Positions 3,644-63,684 of a DNA stretch of 64,000 nt are shown here, in pieces; the first letter of the stretch is position 1; every line of letters begins with the position of its first letter. A program made the translations under genes and the position numbers. This stretch comes from Methylomonas sp. LW13. Its GTDB lineage: Bacteria > Pseudomonadota > Gammaproteobacteria > Methylococcales > Methylomonadaceae. Under the pieces are notes generated by a model. It was not told where the DNA came from. It saw nothing but the letters and a program-made list of their open reading frames with translations, and made no database searches. Location of the stretch: positions 62,001 to 126,000 of the forward strand of contig NZ_CP033381.1 in assembly GCF_016865255.1 (NCBI RefSeq), given 5' to 3'.

Positions 3644-5344
3644 ATGATCCATTGTATGCATAGACATAGTTACTCGTGGCTGCTGTATGGCCTGTTAATG
3701 CTGATCAGCGCCGCGATACAGGCGGCGGAGATTCAAGTAGCGGTTGACCGCAACCCGGTTGGCCTTAACGAATCGTTTCAAATTACCTTTACCGCCAGTG
3801 AAGCTCCGGACGGCAATCCGGATTTTGCGCCCTTGCAGGAGAATTTTGAAATTCTCAGTCAGCAGCGCAGCACCAGCTCCTCTTGGGTCAACGGCAAAAG
3901 TAGCCGGACTGAACAATGGATAGTCCGGGCGATGGCCAAACAAGCCGGCGAGATGTTTATCCCGCCGATTGCCTTCGGTGCCGATAGCAGCAAGCCGTTG
4001 AAGCTGGTTGTGAATGAAAATACCGCCGCTCCGCAAGGCAACGATGACATATTTCTGGACGTGACCGCTACGCCAGAGCAACCTTACGTACAGTCACAAG
4101 TGTTGTACACGCTGAAGTTGTTTCGCAAGGTACAGATTACCCAAGCCAGCCTCAGCGAGCCGGAAATTAAGGATGCCTTAGTCGAAAAACTGGGCGAGGA
4201 CAGCACCTACACCACCCAAGTCAAGGGCGTGGATTATTGGGTGACCGAGCGCAAATATGCCATTTTTCCGCAACAGAGCGGGGTATTTACCATTGCGCCG
4301 CTGATTCTGAATGCCGAATACCTGAGCAATCAACGCCAACCGCGTTTTAACGGTTTCTTCAATCGGCCGGATACGGAAACTCGGCGGGTGGCTTCCAAAG
4401 CCATCACGTTGAACGTGCAAGCGGTGCCGGCAGGCTTTAAAGGCCCGAACTGGTTGAGTGCCGAGTCATTAACACTCAGCGAAGCTTGGTCCGACGCCGG
4501 CTTGCAAACCAAAGTGGGCGAACCCTTGACCCGCACCCTCACACTGAGCGCGAAAGGCACCACGGTCGGCCAGTTGCCGGAGCTGCTCGATAAAACCGCT
4601 ATCGACGGCATCAAAACCTATCCCGACCAACCGCTGCTGAAGGAAGACAAAGACAGCGACGGCTTAACCGCGCTGCGCGAGGAAAAAATCGCCTTCATCC
4701 CTTCCAAGCCCGGCGAATATACCTTGCCGGCGCTGGACATCGTTTGGTTCAACACCAAAACCCAGAAAACGGAAACTGCACATCTGCCTAGCGTCAAGCT
4801 CACGGCTTTAGCCGGCAGCACGGATGCCCAAAATTCCGCACCGCCCGCTACATCAAGCACGCCGCAAGAGCCGGTAACTAGCCCGATGACCACGTCGCCG
4901 ATTACCGTGACCAACAGCAGCGACACCCGCTTTTGGCAAGCGGTATCGGCGACGTTGGCGCTGGGCTGGCTGCTGACCATTGTTGTGTTTTATCGCCGCC
5001 CTTCCGGCAAAGTATCTAAGGATAAGCCTGTTGAACGGGTGCCGGAAACCGCTATGGAAAAGACCCTGAAACGTGCTTGTTGGGAAAATAACCCGCAGGC
5101 CGCCAAACAGGCCTTGCTGCAATGGGGTAAGGCCGAGTTCGGCGCGGAGAGTTTGGGGGCCATTGCGGCGCATTGTCCCGAGGCGCTGCGTGAAGAGATT
5201 TTGGCTTTGAATCGCTTGCTATATTCCGGCCAAAGTCAGGACTGGCAAGGCCAGACTCTTTGGCAGGTGTTTTCCACTAAGCCCGCAGCGGTCAGCGGCA
5301 AAGGCAAAGGCGACGACGGTTTGGAGCCTTTGTTCAAGATTTAA
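3644..5344 (+). CDS. BatD family protein
   Basis: Protein of 566 residues with an N-terminal signal peptide (hydrophobic stretch at about residues 10-28), a long beta-rich periplasmic part, a Thr/Ser/Pro-rich linker near 395-425, one membrane segment near 430-450 and a cytoplasmic tail. This is the layout of BatD, usually found in Bacteroides aerotolerance-type operons with MoxR and von Willebrand proteins. Those partners are not in this window. The ATG directly abuts the stop of the RND pump; a second ATG four codons in (3656) is possible. Being at the end of an efflux operon is unusual for BatD, and any link between the two is unknown. Confidence 0.8.
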   Translation: MIHCMHRHSYSWLLYGLLMLISAAIQAAEIQVAVDRNPVGLNESFQITFTASEAPDGNPDFAPLQENFEILSQQRSTSSSWVNGKSSRTEQWIVRAMAKQAGEMFIPPIAFGADSSKPLKLVVNENTAAPQGNDDIFLDVTATPEQPYVQSQVLYTLKLFRKVQITQASLSEPEIKDALVEKLGEDSTYTTQVKGVDYWVTERKYAIFPQQSGVFTIAPLILNAEYLSNQRQPRFNGFFNRPDTETRRVASKAITLNVQAVPAGFKGPNWLSAESLTLSEAWSDAGLQTKVGEPLTRTLTLSAKGTTVGQLPELLDKTAIDGIKTYPDQPLLKEDKDSDGLTALREEKIAFIPSKPGEYTLPALDIVWFNTKTQKTETAHLPSVKLTALAGSTDAQNSAPPATSSTPQEPVTSPMTTSPITVTNSSDTRFWQAVSATLALGWLLTIVVFYRRPSGKVSKDKPVERVPETAMEKTLKRACWENNPQAAKQALLQWGKAEFGAESLGAIAAHCPEALREEILALNRLLYSGQSQDWQGQTLWQVFSTKPAAVSGKGKGDDGLEPLFKI

Positions 5345-25751: not shown

Positions 25752-25780
25752 ACATAGTCCATATCGAAGGAAGGGTCCGG

Positions 25781-26034
25781 CTCCCGTATGCCGCGCCGAG
25801 CACCGAAGCTTTTTCCGAGATCAGCCCGCTAGGGGAGCGGCAGGGATGCCGCTTGTTTTCGGAGGGGCTGGGAAGCCCCTTCCGAAAACCCTCGGAAAAA
25901 GCTTTGGCGCGCAGGATCAAAGCGGTATTCGGGTCGCTTTTTCTTTGGATACTTTCTTTTGGCGATGCAAAAGAAAGTATCTCGGCTGTCGGTCCGAGAA
26001 CCGACATTAAAATATCCGTCGCGGTAGCGACACC
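25781..26034 (+). repeat. structured dispersed repeat, copy A
   Basis: 254-bp element also present at 56181-56431 (inverted) and 57731-58123. Visible helices are: P1 25807-25819 with 25891-25903 (13 bp); inside it P2 25836-25841 with 25848-25853, loop AGGGAT, and P3 25856-25869 with 25874-25888, loop GGGA; then P4 25949-25960 with 25969-25980 (12 bp); P5 25987-25993 with 26000-26006; P6 26018-26022 with 26027-26031. It opens with CTCCCGTATGCCGCGCCGAG and ends GCGACACC. P1-P3 arms differ in sequence from the other copies yet still pair. It ends 28 bases before dabA. Confidence 0.9.
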
Positions 26035-26061
26035 ATTTTCGAAGATCAGGGTGTTAAGGCA

Positions 26062-56158: not shown

Positions 56159-56180
56159 CTAGGGGAGATTTTTCCAATAA

Positions 56181-56431
56181 GGTGTCGCTAGCGCGACGGC
56201 TGGTTTTTAATGTCGGGTCTCGGCCCGACAGCCGAGATACTTTCTTTTGCTTGGCCAAAAGAAAGTATCCAAAGAAAACGCCACCCGGACGCCGCTTAAT
56301 CCCTGCGCTCCTCGCTTTTGAACGGGGTCGCCGAAAGGGGCTTCCTGCCCTTCGGCAACGCGATGCATCCTTGCATCGCCCCTGCGGGCTGATCCCTTCA
56401 AAAGCTCCGGTGCTCGGCGCGGCATACGGGA
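56181..56431 (-). repeat. structured dispersed repeat, copy B (inverted)
   Basis: 251-bp copy of the element at 25781-26034, in opposite orientation. Read on the minus strand it has P1 AGCTTTTGAA.../...TTCAAAAGC, P2 GCGATGC / GCATCGC with loop AAGGAT (56360-56379), P3 with an AGGAA loop, P4 ATACTTTCTTTT / AAAAGAAAGTAT, P5 with TGTCGGG / CCCGACA, and P6. With copy C it brackets the mrr gene as an inverted pair. Confidence 0.9.
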
Positions 56432-56479
56432 AAACCCCGCGCCAAATCCGCGGCTTATTGTTTACGACCCTTTGTAGGG

Positions 56480-56596: not shown

Positions 56597-57472
56597 TTGG
56601 AATTACCGAAGTTCAATGACACATTCCTTCCAATAATTGACATTCTGCGTGATGGTAGGGTCGTTCCAGGACGGGAGTTGTTACGGCTTGTCGAAGAGAA
56701 ATACTACTCAAAGCTTCCGCCAGAATTGCTGAATCAGACAACAAAGAGTGGTGATCGACTTCTGGAAAACAGAATCGCCTGGGGAAAGTCCTATCTCAAG
56801 AAAGGTGGTCTAGTCCACTATCCTCAACGCGGTTATGTCCAGATTACCGAGAAAGGTAAGTCCGCAAAGGTCGAAACGATTTCAATAGATCAACTGGCGT
56901 CTGACGTTATCGGCTTCTACAAACCGGAGGGAGCGATTTCTGAAAAGCAAGAAATTGCCAACTCAAGTCCACAGGACCTTATTGATTCTGGCATTGAACA
57001 GATTGAAGACAATGTCAAAATTGAGCTTTTACAGAAACTGAAGCTGATTGATCCATTCGCTTTCGAAAGAGTTATTCTTATCTTGCTGAATCGAATGGGC
57101 TATGGCGAATTCATTGAAACTTCCAAATCCCGTGATGGCGGAATTGACGGAATCATAAATGAAGATCAACTTGGTTTGGAGAAGATCTACATTCAGGCCA
57201 AACGGTATACTGACAACAAGGTCCGTGAACCCGATATTCGAAATTTCATCGGGGCCATGAGTGGTGACACAGCCAAGGGAATTTTTGTCACAACCTCCGA
57301 TTTTGACGAAAATGCAAAGAAGAAGGCTAAGGCAGCCCATCACACAATCGTTCTAGTTAACGGACTGCGATTGGTTGAGTTGATGTACAAATTCGGGGTA
57401 GGGGTTCAAGTGAAAAACTCATATGAGGTCAAAGCGTTAGATAATGATTTCTTTGAAAATGAGGATATCTAA
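56597..57472 (+). CDS. Mrr-type restriction endonuclease (type IV)
   Basis: Protein of 291 residues with the Mrr N-terminal winged-helix domain (about 1-90) and a C-terminal PD-(D/E)xK nuclease domain (about 150-270): Phe156-Glu157 region, Asp184 in DGGIDG and Gln200/Lys202 in IQAKRY. Mrr enzymes cut methylated or modified DNA. It starts with TTG; GAGGAGA lies seven bases upstream, and no better start is present. Base composition is visibly more AT-rich than the neighbours, and structured repeats in opposite orientation lie on both sides, so recent transfer is likely. No modification gene is nearby, consistent with type IV. Confidence 0.9.
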   Translation: MELPKFNDTFLPIIDILRDGRVVPGRELLRLVEEKYYSKLPPELLNQTTKSGDRLLENRIAWGKSYLKKGGLVHYPQRGYVQITEKGKSAKVETISIDQLASDVIGFYKPEGAISEKQEIANSSPQDLIDSGIEQIEDNVKIELLQKLKLIDPFAFERVILILLNRMGYGEFIETSKSRDGGIDGIINEDQLGLEKIYIQAKRYTDNKVREPDIRNFIGAMSGDTAKGIFVTTSDFDENAKKKAKAAHHTIVLVNGLRLVELMYKFGVGVQVKNSYEVKALDNDFFENEDI

Positions 57473-57544
57473 CATCTAGTTAAATCTGAAAATTGCGTAC
57501 CGAAATCACATGTTCTCAGCGTGGGAACGAGATAAAGCGCAAGG

Positions 57545-57568
57545 TCCGATTAGCGCAGCGTAATCGGA
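57545..57568. repeat. short palindromic repeat (GCG-core family)
   Basis: Arms TCCGATTA / TAATCGGA around GCGCAGCG, 72 bases after the mrr stop. Confidence 0.6.
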
Positions 57569-57644
57569 CGCATGTTGAATTAAATCTTTAAGAGTATGTG
57601 CTGCTTCCAATAAGGCAAACAATGATTGTAAGCTCCCTTCATTC

Positions 57645-57670
57645 CTCCGAATACGCTTTGCTATTCGGAG
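57645..57670. repeat. short palindromic repeat (GCG-core family)
   Basis: Arms CTCCGAATA / TATTCGGAG around CGCTTTGC, between mrr and structured repeat copy C. Confidence 0.55.
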
Positions 57671-57730
57671 CTACCTCAAAATGGCTACAATTTTTATAAG
57701 CTCAAACCCTGCAAATCGCGCACGGGTTTT

Positions 57731-58123
57731 CTCTCGTATGCCGCGCCGAGCACCGGAGCTTTTGAACGGATCAGCCCGTTAGGGGCAATGCAGGGATGCA
57801 TCGCGTTGCCGAAGGGCCAGGAAGCCCCTTTCGGCAACCCCGTTCAAAAGCGAGGAGCGCAGGACAAATCGGCAGGATAGCCGATTTGCATGAATCGCAC
57901 CCGAAGGGCGAGGCACAAGGATGTGCCGAGTGATCTAAGCGGCATCCGGGTGGCCTTTTCTTTGGATATTTTCTTTTGGCCACGCACAAATTCGCATGGA
58001 GCGAATTTGAACAGCCGATAGGCTGGCCCGGAGGGCGAAAACCAGGGATGGTTTTCGTAGCGAAAGTATCGGCTGTCGGGCCGAGACCCGACATTAAAAA
58101 CTAGCCGTCGCGCTAGCGACACC
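57731..58123 (+). repeat. structured dispersed repeat, copy C (extended)
   Basis: 393-bp copy, the longest. P1 57758-57769 with 57840-57851; P2 around loop AGGGAT (57792-57797); P3 57805-57817 with about 57824-57837, loop near AGGA; then four extra hairpins not in copies A and B: 57865-57889 (loop AGGATA), 57912-57927 (loop AAGGAT), 57987-58009 (loop ATGGA) and 58036-58057 (loop AGGGAT). The element ends with P5 (TGTCGGG / CCCGACA) and P6. P4 is split by the inserted hairpins. Six hairpin loops contain GGA on this strand. Confidence 0.9.
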
Positions 58124-58423
58124 TAAAACACCAACTGCATTGACATCATCCCCGAAATCTCAAATCCCGTCCGCGGAACCGTCGCGCAGAAAAATTATTC
58201 TTATCCGTTGATAACCTAATAAGAGGGCAGTTTTGAGCTAATTGGGAACGCAAACCCTGCCACGCTAAGGTCAAAAATTCCACGTCAAACAAGCCGCTAA
58301 CCCGTCCGACCGCTCACACAACTCCGCGAAGTTGAATGACGGTAGCTATTTTGCGCTACAGAGTACAAAAGTTCCGGGCGATTTGTTTCCATAAAAGAAA
58401 CAAATCATGAATAAAATGCCTGA
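58124..58423. other. intergenic stretch without a supported gene
   Basis: 300 bases after repeat copy C with no supported frame. Near its end a 9-bp inverted repeat (ATTTGTTTC / GAAACAAAT, 58381-58405) lies just before the promoter of the next gene and could be an operator or terminator. Confidence 0.4.
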
Positions 58424-61680: not shown

Positions 61681-62433
61681 ATGTCTGCACAAATTCCAAT
61701 TTCAACCTTCAAACCTTATCGGGGCGAAAAAGCCCGGCTGGCCAGAGCTTACGATTATCTGATTCTGGTACTGGCCCTATTTTTATTCATCGGTTCGTTC
61801 CATCTGCATTTCGCCCTGACCGTCGGCGACTGGGACTTCTGGGTCGATTGGAAAGATCGGCAATGGTGGCCTTTGGTCACACCCTTAATCGGCATCACCT
61901 TTCCAGCGGCTGTTCAAGCTGTGTTATGGGATAAGTTCCGGCTACCTTTGGGCGCCACGCTCTGCGTTGCAGCGTTGTTGATCGGCACTTGGGTTGCCCG
62001 AATCTTTGCCTATCACTACTGGAATTTCTTTCCCGTCAACATGGTGTTGCCGGCCACCATGGTGCCGGGAGCCTTGGTACTGGATACCTTGTTGATGCTG
62101 ACCAACAGCCTGACCATCACCTCCATTTTTGGCGGTGGCGCGTTTGCCTTGTTGTTTTACCCGACCAACTGGCCGATCTTCGGCATGTTCCACCAAGCGG
62201 TCGAATACCACAACAGCCAGCTGACTGTGGCCGATTTATTTGGTTTCCAATATATCCGCACCGGCATGCCTGAATACTTGCGCATCATCGAGCGCGGCAC
62301 CTTGCGCACCTACGGTCAGTACGCCACACCTTTGGCGGCATTCTGTTCAGCGTTGTTGTGCTCGTTGATGTATCCGCTGTGGTGGTACATCGGTAAATGG
62401 TTCGCCACCACCCGTTATTTGAAAAAAATCTAA
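61681..62433 (+). CDS. pxmA: Pxm monooxygenase subunit A (PmoA/AmoA-like)
   Basis: Integral membrane subunit of the copper membrane monooxygenase family, 250 residues with about six or seven helices. It aligns with PmoA by DYLILVLALFLFIG, TVGDWDFWVDWKDRQWWP, GTWVARIFAYHYWNFFPVNMV and the C-terminal RTYGQYATPLAAFCSA. Being first in the order A-B-C, rather than second in C-A-B, identifies the pxm lineage, whose substrate is still debated (methane, ammonia or others). In Methylomonas pxm transcription has been reported to rise at low oxygen with nitrite or nitrate. Preceded by a GGGGG-type SD. Confidence 0.93.
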   Translation: MSAQIPISTFKPYRGEKARLARAYDYLILVLALFLFIGSFHLHFALTVGDWDFWVDWKDRQWWPLVTPLIGITFPAAVQAVLWDKFRLPLGATLCVAALLIGTWVARIFAYHYWNFFPVNMVLPATMVPGALVLDTLLMLTNSLTITSIFGGGAFALLFYPTNWPIFGMFHQAVEYHNSQLTVADLFGFQYIRTGMPEYLRIIERGTLRTYGQYATPLAAFCSALLCSLMYPLWWYIGKWFATTRYLKKI

Positions 62434-62445
62434 GGAGGAATGGTC

Positions 62446-63684
62446 ATGAAATCACTCTTTAAACCTTGGCTGTTGGCGTTGCTGTGCGTCAATGTATTGT
62501 CCATATTTACGGTACCCACCGCGCAGGCACATGGCGAAAAAGCCCTGGAGCCGTTCATCAGGATGCGCACCATCCAGTGGTACGACGTGCAATGGTCCAC
62601 GCAAAAATTCAACGTCAACGATGAAGTCAGCGTTAGCGGCAAGTTTCATGTCGCCGAAGACTGGCCGATCAGTGTGCCAAAGCCGGAAGCCACTTTCCTG
62701 AATATTTCAACACCTGGGCCGGTACTGATCCGCACCGAACGTTACCTGAACGGCAAACCATGGACCAACTCGGTAGCCCTGGAGCCGGGCGGTGACTACG
62801 AGTTCAAGGTGGTCATGAAGGGCCGTTTGCCTGGCCATTATCACATCCATCCGTTTTTTAATTTAAAAGACGCCGGTCAGGTAATGGGCCCTGGGGTGTG
62901 GCTGGACATTGGCGGCGATCCCGCGGACTTTAGCAATACCATTCAAACCATCAACGGTGAAATGATCGACATGGAAAGCTTCGGCTTTGCCAATGGTGTG
63001 TTTTGGCACCTGTTCTGGGGAGCGTTGGCGGCTGCCTGGCTGTTGTGGTGGGTGCGCCGTCCCTTGTTCATCAGCCGTTACCGGATGTTGGATGCCGGTT
63101 TGGAACATGAGTTGATCACAGCTCGGGACAAAGTCATCGCCAAGGCCGTGTTAGTGGGCATTCCGGTATTGGTATTGGTGATTAATTCCGTAACCAATAG
63201 CCGTTATCCGGACACCATCCCATTACAAGCAGGACTGGATAGGATTTTGCCTTTACCGGCTCAAGTCAATGCCGGAACGGTCAATGTCGACACGCTAAAA
63301 GCCGAATACAACGTGGCGCAACGTGCCATGGTGTTGCAGGTTAGTGTCGATAATCGCAGCCAAGGGGCGGTCAGGATAGGCGAGTTTTCCAGTTCCAACG
63401 TGCATTTCATGAATGATGATCTATCCGAGGTAGGCAACGTGCCCGGCAAGGACGACGTCAGCAATAAAGGCCTGAGCCTGAATGACAACACGCCTATCGC
63501 CCCCGGCGAACAACGTACCGTCACTATTGAAGTGCGCGATGCGGCCTGGGAGTCGGAAAAGCTGGATGGACTAATCAAAGACGCGGATAGCCGAGTGGGT
63601 GGCTTACTGTTTCTTTACGACGACGTGATGGGAAAACGCTATATCTCCAGCATTTCCGCCGCCGTCATTCCCAAATTCAATTAA
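62446..63684 (+). CDS. pxmB: Pxm monooxygenase subunit B (PmoB/AmoB-like)
   Basis: Periplasmic-domain subunit of 412 residues with signal peptide cut at AQA|HGEK, leaving His29 at the mature N-terminus, the copper ligand His33 of PmoB. His133 and His135 in HYHIHP match PmoB His137 and His139 of the CuB site. The residue matching PmoB His48 (RTIHWYD in Methylococcus capsulatus) is Gln44 (RTIQWYD). Two membrane helices (about 185-205 and 225-245 in the precursor) separate two cupredoxin domains. AGGAGG ends seven bases before the ATG at 62446; an ATG at 62440 is too close. Confidence 0.93.
   Translation: MKSLFKPWLLALLCVNVLSIFTVPTAQAHGEKALEPFIRMRTIQWYDVQWSTQKFNVNDEVSVSGKFHVAEDWPISVPKPEATFLNISTPGPVLIRTERYLNGKPWTNSVALEPGGDYEFKVVMKGRLPGHYHIHPFFNLKDAGQVMGPGVWLDIGGDPADFSNTIQTINGEMIDMESFGFANGVFWHLFWGALAAAWLLWWVRRPLFISRYRMLDAGLEHELITARDKVIAKAVLVGIPVLVLVINSVTNSRYPDTIPLQAGLDRILPLPAQVNAGTVNVDTLKAEYNVAQRAMVLQVSVDNRSQGAVRIGEFSSSNVHFMNDDLSEVGNVPGKDDVSNKGLSLNDNTPIAPGEQRTVTIEVRDAAWESEKLDGLIKDADSRVGGLLFLYDDVMGKRYISSISAAVIPKFN

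Follow-up and report, generated by a model that had tools for sequence, protein, structure and literature searches.

The window analysed here, a stretch of 64,000 nucleotides from the genome of Methylomonas sp. LW13, contains three copies (A, B and C) of a single element of about 255 nt, with copy C lengthened by two additional hairpin modules, M1 and M2. Copies B and C are divergent and enclose a gene for an Mrr-type restriction endonuclease. The copies and their parts are given below in window positions.

25781..26034, plus strand: copy A of the element, a single copy (nhmmer and R1 model matches)
25835..25854, plus strand: P4 hairpin of copy A, loop GGGA inside CAGGGATG
25861..25882, plus strand: P5 apical hairpin of copy A, loop GGGA
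56180..56434, minus strand: copy B of the element, the left cassette edge
56360..56379, minus strand: P4 hairpin of copy B, loop AGGA inside CAAGGATG
56338..56350, minus strand: P5 apical hairpin of copy B, CAGGAAG
56597..57472, plus strand: cargo enclosed by B and C, a gene for an Mrr-type restriction endonuclease (Pfam Mrr_cat, 2.9e-34; PADLOC mREase_IV, 6.8e-53)
57731..58124, plus strand: copy C, lengthened by modules M1 and M2, the right cassette edge
57738..57744, plus strand: 5' strand of the closing helix P1 of copy C, partner 57939-57945 (helix 1, placed by reading the sequence)
57788..57801, plus strand: P4 hairpin of copy C, CAGGGATG
57814..57827, plus strand: P5 apical hairpin of copy C, CAGGAAG
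57864..57934, plus strand: module M1, an insert with GGA hairpins at 57865-57888 and 57912-57927 (from comparison of copies; edges approximate)
57951..57982, plus strand: first pseudoknot of copy C, TGGC 57951-57954 with GCCA 57979-57982, surrounding the 5' arm at 57965-57977 (helices 5 and 6, placed by reading the sequence)
57985..58060, plus strand: module M2, an insert with GGA hairpins at 57987-58009 and 58035-58058 (from comparison of copies; edges approximate)
58069..58093, plus strand: second pseudoknot of copy C, TCGG with CCGA; TGTCGGG 58074-58080 with CCCGACA 58087-58093 (helices 7 and 8, placed by reading the sequence)
58107..58120, plus strand: terminal hairpin of copy C, GTCGC..GCGAC (helix 9)

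In copy C, M1 sits after the 5' domain and M2 in one loop of the 3' domain, where it shortens the 3' arm of the first pseudoknot, and both modules recur in further copies of the element. At the site of copy A (25752-26061), comparison with two relatives (L247 and L265) shows their element in reverse orientation to the genes on either side, as though a different half of a pair had been kept in each case. Elsewhere in the window (61681-63684), two ORFs resemble, by eye, subunits of particulate methane monooxygenase, which fits a methanotroph host.

The first-pass annotation had described these repeats as hairpins with GGA in the loop, many of them reading CARGGATG. These loops lie exactly where it had placed them, on the plus strand of C (57791-57798, 57916-57923 and 58043-58050) and of A (25841-25848) and on the minus strand of B (56366-56373). 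The six GGA hairpins that it had counted in C (57788-57801, 57814-57827, 57865-57888, 57912-57927, 57987-58009 and 58035-58058) are likewise present, that at 57814-57827 being a 4-bp apical stem within a longer helix; three more 4-bp candidates from the scan of C (57748-57761, 57762-57774 and 58026-58036) were left uncounted. The CARGGATG hairpins at 57916 and 58043 lie in the inserted modules, which A and B do not carry. CANGGATG has 11 occurrences in the window, both strands counted: five in the repeats, closed by 3-8 further base pairs, and six elsewhere, closed by 0-2.

By using an alignment of 51 core copies from six genomes (A1), the claim of a constant loop on a variable stem was borne out: P4 has GGA in 51/51 copies and a CA..TG closure in 49/51, with 10 distinct 6-nt outer stems, and it equals CANGGATG in 49 of the 51. 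P5 carries GGA in 49/51 copies and reads CAGGAAG in 31/51. The hairpin arm of the first pseudoknot (A1 columns 174-207) reads either TTTCTTTT or TTTTCTTT, each in about half of the copies, and both sides of the arm change together. The earlier observation is confirmed, with one correction: rather than forming a mere string, the GGA hairpins belong to an element of about 255 nt with conserved pseudoknots.

The element covaries as a single-strand fold with two H-type pseudoknots. A nine-helix structure was drawn by hand and counted on A1, where 97.3% of the cells pair and 36 of the 79 pairs show changes on both sides. Two A1 sequences served as the model for this structure, so the pairing figure is favoured, and the double changes are the stronger evidence; these amount to 366 cells, whereas shuffling gives 108.5 on average and slid versions give 11-43, cell counts here and below being inflated by related copies. 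In the long helix, two pairs often fail to form, the one at A1 column 29 in 28/51 copies and the one at column 30 in 26/51. Both pseudoknots hold in 48 diverse 3' domains, with 93.4% paired, both-side changes in 23/27 pairs, and 224 such cells against 67.8 shuffled and 24-50 slid. Regarding the strand, the GGA-bearing one shows 78 G·T vs 6 A·C cells (24 vs 6 column entries) once four poorly pairing columns are omitted, an excess that is expected if function resides in this strand, be it RNA or single-stranded DNA. This asymmetry favours the strand on which the loops had first been read. Folding-energy z-scores are low for both strands (-6.80 on plus, -8.13 on minus), so that energy alone decides for neither.

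The genome-wide search that had been proposed reveals a family far larger than the window, with 58 R1 model matches at 100 bits or more (57 at 142 or more) in the host genome, a single contig of 5.23 Mb. Matches to copy C by blastn occur in 24/31 genomes of the first set of relatives, host counted. Within the class, the R1 model finds the element in 58/229 genomes and 55/196 genera, and the R2 model, built on the 3' domain with the GGA part left out, in 99/377 genomes of at least 95% completeness and 80/271 genera; 9 or 11 candidates were scored per genome in these searches, so per-genome match numbers are to be read as at least the number given. Hosts among the matches listed by a pattern search include Methylomonas, Methylobacter, Crenothrix, Methylovulum, Methylocaldum, Rheinheimera and Psychromonas, together with Vogesella, Silvimonas, Thiobacillus, Methylotenera, Gallionellales and Comamonadaceae.

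Rfam 15 gave zero matches at gathering score for the window and 20 distant loci, curated Csr/Rsm RNA families included. At a permissive threshold, the interval 57400-58400 yielded only Pseudomon-Rho, on the opposite strand with 19 of 45 bits, and an RsmV fragment with 11.2 of 100 bits. Carriage of copy C by phages or plasmids was also considered and rejected, as blastn against plasmid and phage collections at E 1e-5 returned zero matches. A description of the element was not found in the literature searched, mostly from outside the subscription journals; it looks like a large folded RNA family, apparently undescribed so far.

Adjacent copies mostly diverge. Among 24 host neighbours within 4 kb of each other, 21 are divergent, 2 convergent and 1 tandem, and the divergent pairs, with gaps of 147-3368 nt, hold 42 of the 58 host copies. 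Divergent orientation was found in 30/43 adjacent pairs of the first fetched loci, fragments counted, and in 16/16, 21/22 and 15/18 pairs of later loci, which overlap in part and are non-independent; the host and later counts come from hand-typed match lists with partial and some contig-end matches omitted. Some pairs in other genera nearly abut (13 nt in G044), which leaves little room for a promoter. Arrays hold the order -..-, +..+ (L067, L072, L075 and L077), and the members of a pair may differ in subtype or modules, as do B and C of the window and those of L051. Same-direction tandem copies occur at L053 and L073, the latter with repeated related 112-aa ORFs in between. The idea that single copies lie, as a rule, in sense orientation behind genes was rejected, since their orientation to neighbouring genes is not fixed.

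The cargo enclosed by the pairs is varied, including Mrr, deaminase, HNH, Schlafen AlbA_2, PIN, TrmO, cupin and DUF1152 proteins. A Pfam scan of 20 cargo proteins left 13 without a family at E 0.01, and a PADLOC scan of ten gave five matches at E 0.01: Mrr, the deaminase (dCTPase model, 2.8e-163), an HNH protein that matches just the HNH part of other systems, and two ORFs of one locus (L070:3347-4033 and 4093-4623). The last two, which are neighbours, cover adjoining stretches of a single PADLOC candidate model, PDC-S59, and may be pieces of one split gene. Genomes that share one of six chromosomal sites align with each other in the outer flanks, and their cargo is unalignable except for end segments of 35-181 bp. 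One site, traced through four genomes, holds four different cargos (L050, L070, L071 and L074), and in two cases the same cargo lies at different sites in different genomes (L057/L075 and L062/L069). The copies appear to mark the edges of exchangeable gene cassettes, and this cassette-border architecture is the larger finding. As side observations, ORFs resembling, by eye, Y1/REP-type transposases occur in some pair cargos (L041, L049, L062, L068 and L077), and at two loci (L040:3830-5270 and L047:1904-3343) an IS110-type-like transposase ORF, again by eye, lies downstream of the element, the sequence shared by these loci being 98.8% identical and starting within the 3' part of the element.

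Several known systems resemble this architecture. REP/BIME sequences are dispersed intergenic palindromes, often in inverted pairs, each a short hairpin, and are mobilised by RAYT transposases. The element shares the dispersed, intergenic and palindromic character, the frequent inverted pairing and, in a few cargos, Y1-like ORFs (by eye), but it is a pseudoknotted unit of about 255 nt rather than a short hairpin, and its cargo consists mostly of other genes. In integrons, small exchangeable gene cassettes lie beside a structured element, attC, with the gene strand fixed. Here too small exchangeable cassettes adjoin a structured element; however, the elements stand on both sides, facing outward, and the strand of the cargo varies. 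An integron-like order of gene plus downstream element was rejected, as cargo ORFs lie on both strands and are mixed between same-direction elements. MITEs, mobile insertion cassettes and neisserial minimal mobile elements have inverted repeats around accessory genes, with cargo that varies at a site. These traits recur in the present family, whose repeats, in contrast, covary as a single-strand fold and whose outer ends showed no constant or convincing direct repeat in 26 pairs, so that the target-site duplication of MITE or DDE transposon ends was not found.

On a DNA-level reading, mobile cassettes would end or recombine at the copies, which would work either as single-stranded DNA in folded form or as long inverted repeats that an enzyme recognises, with the GGA loops as part of the recognition. 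Head-to-head pairs around varied cargo would be explained in this way, as would the swapping of cargo at fixed sites and the two cargos seen at different sites, and single-stranded DNA can form G·T pairs too. The absence of target duplications from the 26 pairs argues against it, as does the fact that paired copies can differ in subtype or modules, and no candidate recombinase was found in a search that stopped short of genome-wide co-occurrence. The G·U asymmetry lowers the odds of a DNA-level role, which, all things taken together, is considered unlikely.

For a structured RNA at the cassette edges, the GGA hairpins suggest a possible protein partner in the host, which encodes a CsrA of 63 aa (L314:562-753) with R44 and with L4, the latter presumably of functional importance. 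A role for R44 in CsrA is named in PMC7652899, where the CsrB repeat is given as CAGGA(U/A/C)G, the distance over which CsrA bridges two sites as 10-63 nt, and selected CsrA ligands as having mostly four contiguous pairs or fewer; PMC6849547 gives the Rsm/CsrA consensus as CANGGANG. P4 equals this consensus, CAGGAAG of P5 fits the CsrB repeat, and the two GGA motifs are spaced 26 nt apart in copy C, inside the bridging range. Against CsrA, the GGA hairpins have more contiguous pairs than most selected ligands. The features of a CsrA target are found together, namely sites that fit CANGGANG, two of them at bridging distance, and a host that encodes CsrA, and the several GGA hairpin loops per RNA that characterise Csr/Rsm sponges are found as well. 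The sponge RNAs CsrB/CsrC and RsmX/Y/Z share these loops and both motifs with the element, but the latter differs from them by its covarying pseudoknots and long closing helix, by its dozens of dispersed copies placed head to head around genes, and by its lack of an Rfam match at gathering score. For the loops of this host, CsrA is the best explanation on offer, and in vivo binding, given transcription, is predicted at about two chances in three.

The distribution of csrA, found in 330/377 class genomes, bears on this prediction. Occurrence of the RNA itself does not follow that of csrA, as csrA-less genomes make up 9/58 of the R1-positive genomes vs 35/229 overall. The cleanest clade is the family f115, with csrA in 2/40 genomes and the RNA in 18/40, neither csrA genome among them. 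In its 39 copies listed, the 5' domain carries a type II motif (GTTTGAGC..GCGAGTT), is shortened or differs in some other way, while the pseudoknots are retained, and zero elements with two GGA hairpins were found among 40 scanned. Under a narrow fixed rule, any GGA hairpin was found in 20/34 csrA-positive genomes whose copies were examined, in 2/19 f115 genomes (G137 and G261, single hairpins; other triplets 0-5 of 19), and in 6/10 csrA-negative genomes outside f115, mostly fragmented drafts. The GGA-hairpin genomes outside f115 in which csrA was not found include both genomes of one genus. Separately, one genome (G425) has 12 csrA matches and at least 11 R2 matches.

Element counts were made on 119 elements, after duplicates, incomplete matches and those close to contig ends (<120 nt sequence) had been omitted, and used the first loop rules, which also took off-position CGAGGA. 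Two or more GGA hairpins occur in 15/53 elements of csrA-positive genomes and in 4/66 of csrA-negative ones, none of these four in f115; the type II motif occurs in 18/53 and 38/66, respectively. The type II motif, found with and without csrA, may serve some other factor. A type II 5' domain with conserved GTYTGAGC..GCGAGTT in place of the GGA hairpins is seen at L100, L104, L106, L111, L211, L246 and L252.

In a named set of 40 genomes, with loci of further genomes omitted and completeness not given, csrA is present in 15. Tandem GGA hairpins were found in 10 of these 15 vs 2 of 22 csrA-less genomes (L236 and L265), and any GGA hairpin, by the raw rule, in 12/15 and 5/22, the 22 being those left once three csrA-less elements of only 15-46 nt and one match truncated at a contig end had been dropped. 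All ten csrA-positive genomes with tandem GGA hairpins belong to methanotrophs, and most of the csrA-less genomes to betaproteobacteria, so that the contrast is confounded with phylogeny. While the association of the GGA domain with csrA runs as predicted and f115 fits it, phylogeny and draft gaps leave the link unproven.

These data support in part the earlier proposal of a CsrA decoy or target. The features of a target are retained: the strand, the CANGGANG loops, the host csrA and an f115 without tandem GGA hairpins. A simple decoy fares worse, since the 3' pseudoknot domain outlasts the GGA hairpins, the copies bracket swappable genes, GGA hairpins occur in csrA-negative genomes outside f115, and the type II motif is found in csrA-positive and csrA-negative genomes alike. 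In the strict form of a dedicated decoy, the copies would be transcribed chiefly to titrate CsrA, with M1 and M2 adding capacity, as might suit the six GGA hairpins of C, the 57 strong copies of the host genome and the recurrence of the modules in other copies; since this leaves unexplained the head-to-head pairs, their cargo and the csrA-less hosts that retain the rest of the RNA, it is held to be quite improbable. Slightly more improbable is a non-CsrA partner of the GGA loops, be it another RNA-binding protein, the ribosomal anti-Shine-Dalgarno or a tertiary contact within the RNA, to which the hairpins of the 6/10 csrA-negative genomes would be congenial, but not the close fit of the NGGA closed by CA/TG to the Rsm consensus or the absence of the hairpins from f115.

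The best explanation, to which a probability of about one in two is assigned, is a structured RNA element at the edges of exchangeable cassettes, with GGA hairpins that hold CsrA. A transcript exiting the cassette in either direction would meet one copy in the sense direction, and the pseudoknotted 3' domain would provide a stable transcript end. One CsrA dimer would sit on the pair of GGA hairpins in the type I 5' domain, and the bound CsrA might control the end of the cassette transcript through its stability, its processing or Rho-dependent termination. Being numerous, and in some cases enlarged by extra GGA modules, the copies could also draw CsrA off other targets. Where CsrA is lacking, this RNA mostly has the type II 5' domain instead, so the CsrA arm looks exchangeable. 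The wider statement, put forward tentatively, is that of a class-wide, undescribed RNA family, set head to head around swappable cassettes, that docks the host CsrA through a replaceable 5' domain and swaps this domain for type II where CsrA is absent.

If this is true, the family would represent a system of gene cassettes connected to an RNA-binding protein of the host. The element is present in about a quarter of the sampled class genomes, at the borders of accessory genes, some of which are anti-phage candidates. Should it bind CsrA, the exchange of cassettes would be tied to a global regulator, and each methanotroph genome would gain dozens of added CsrA sites. Even without CsrA, the paired elements furnish a sequence handle toward new cassette cargo.
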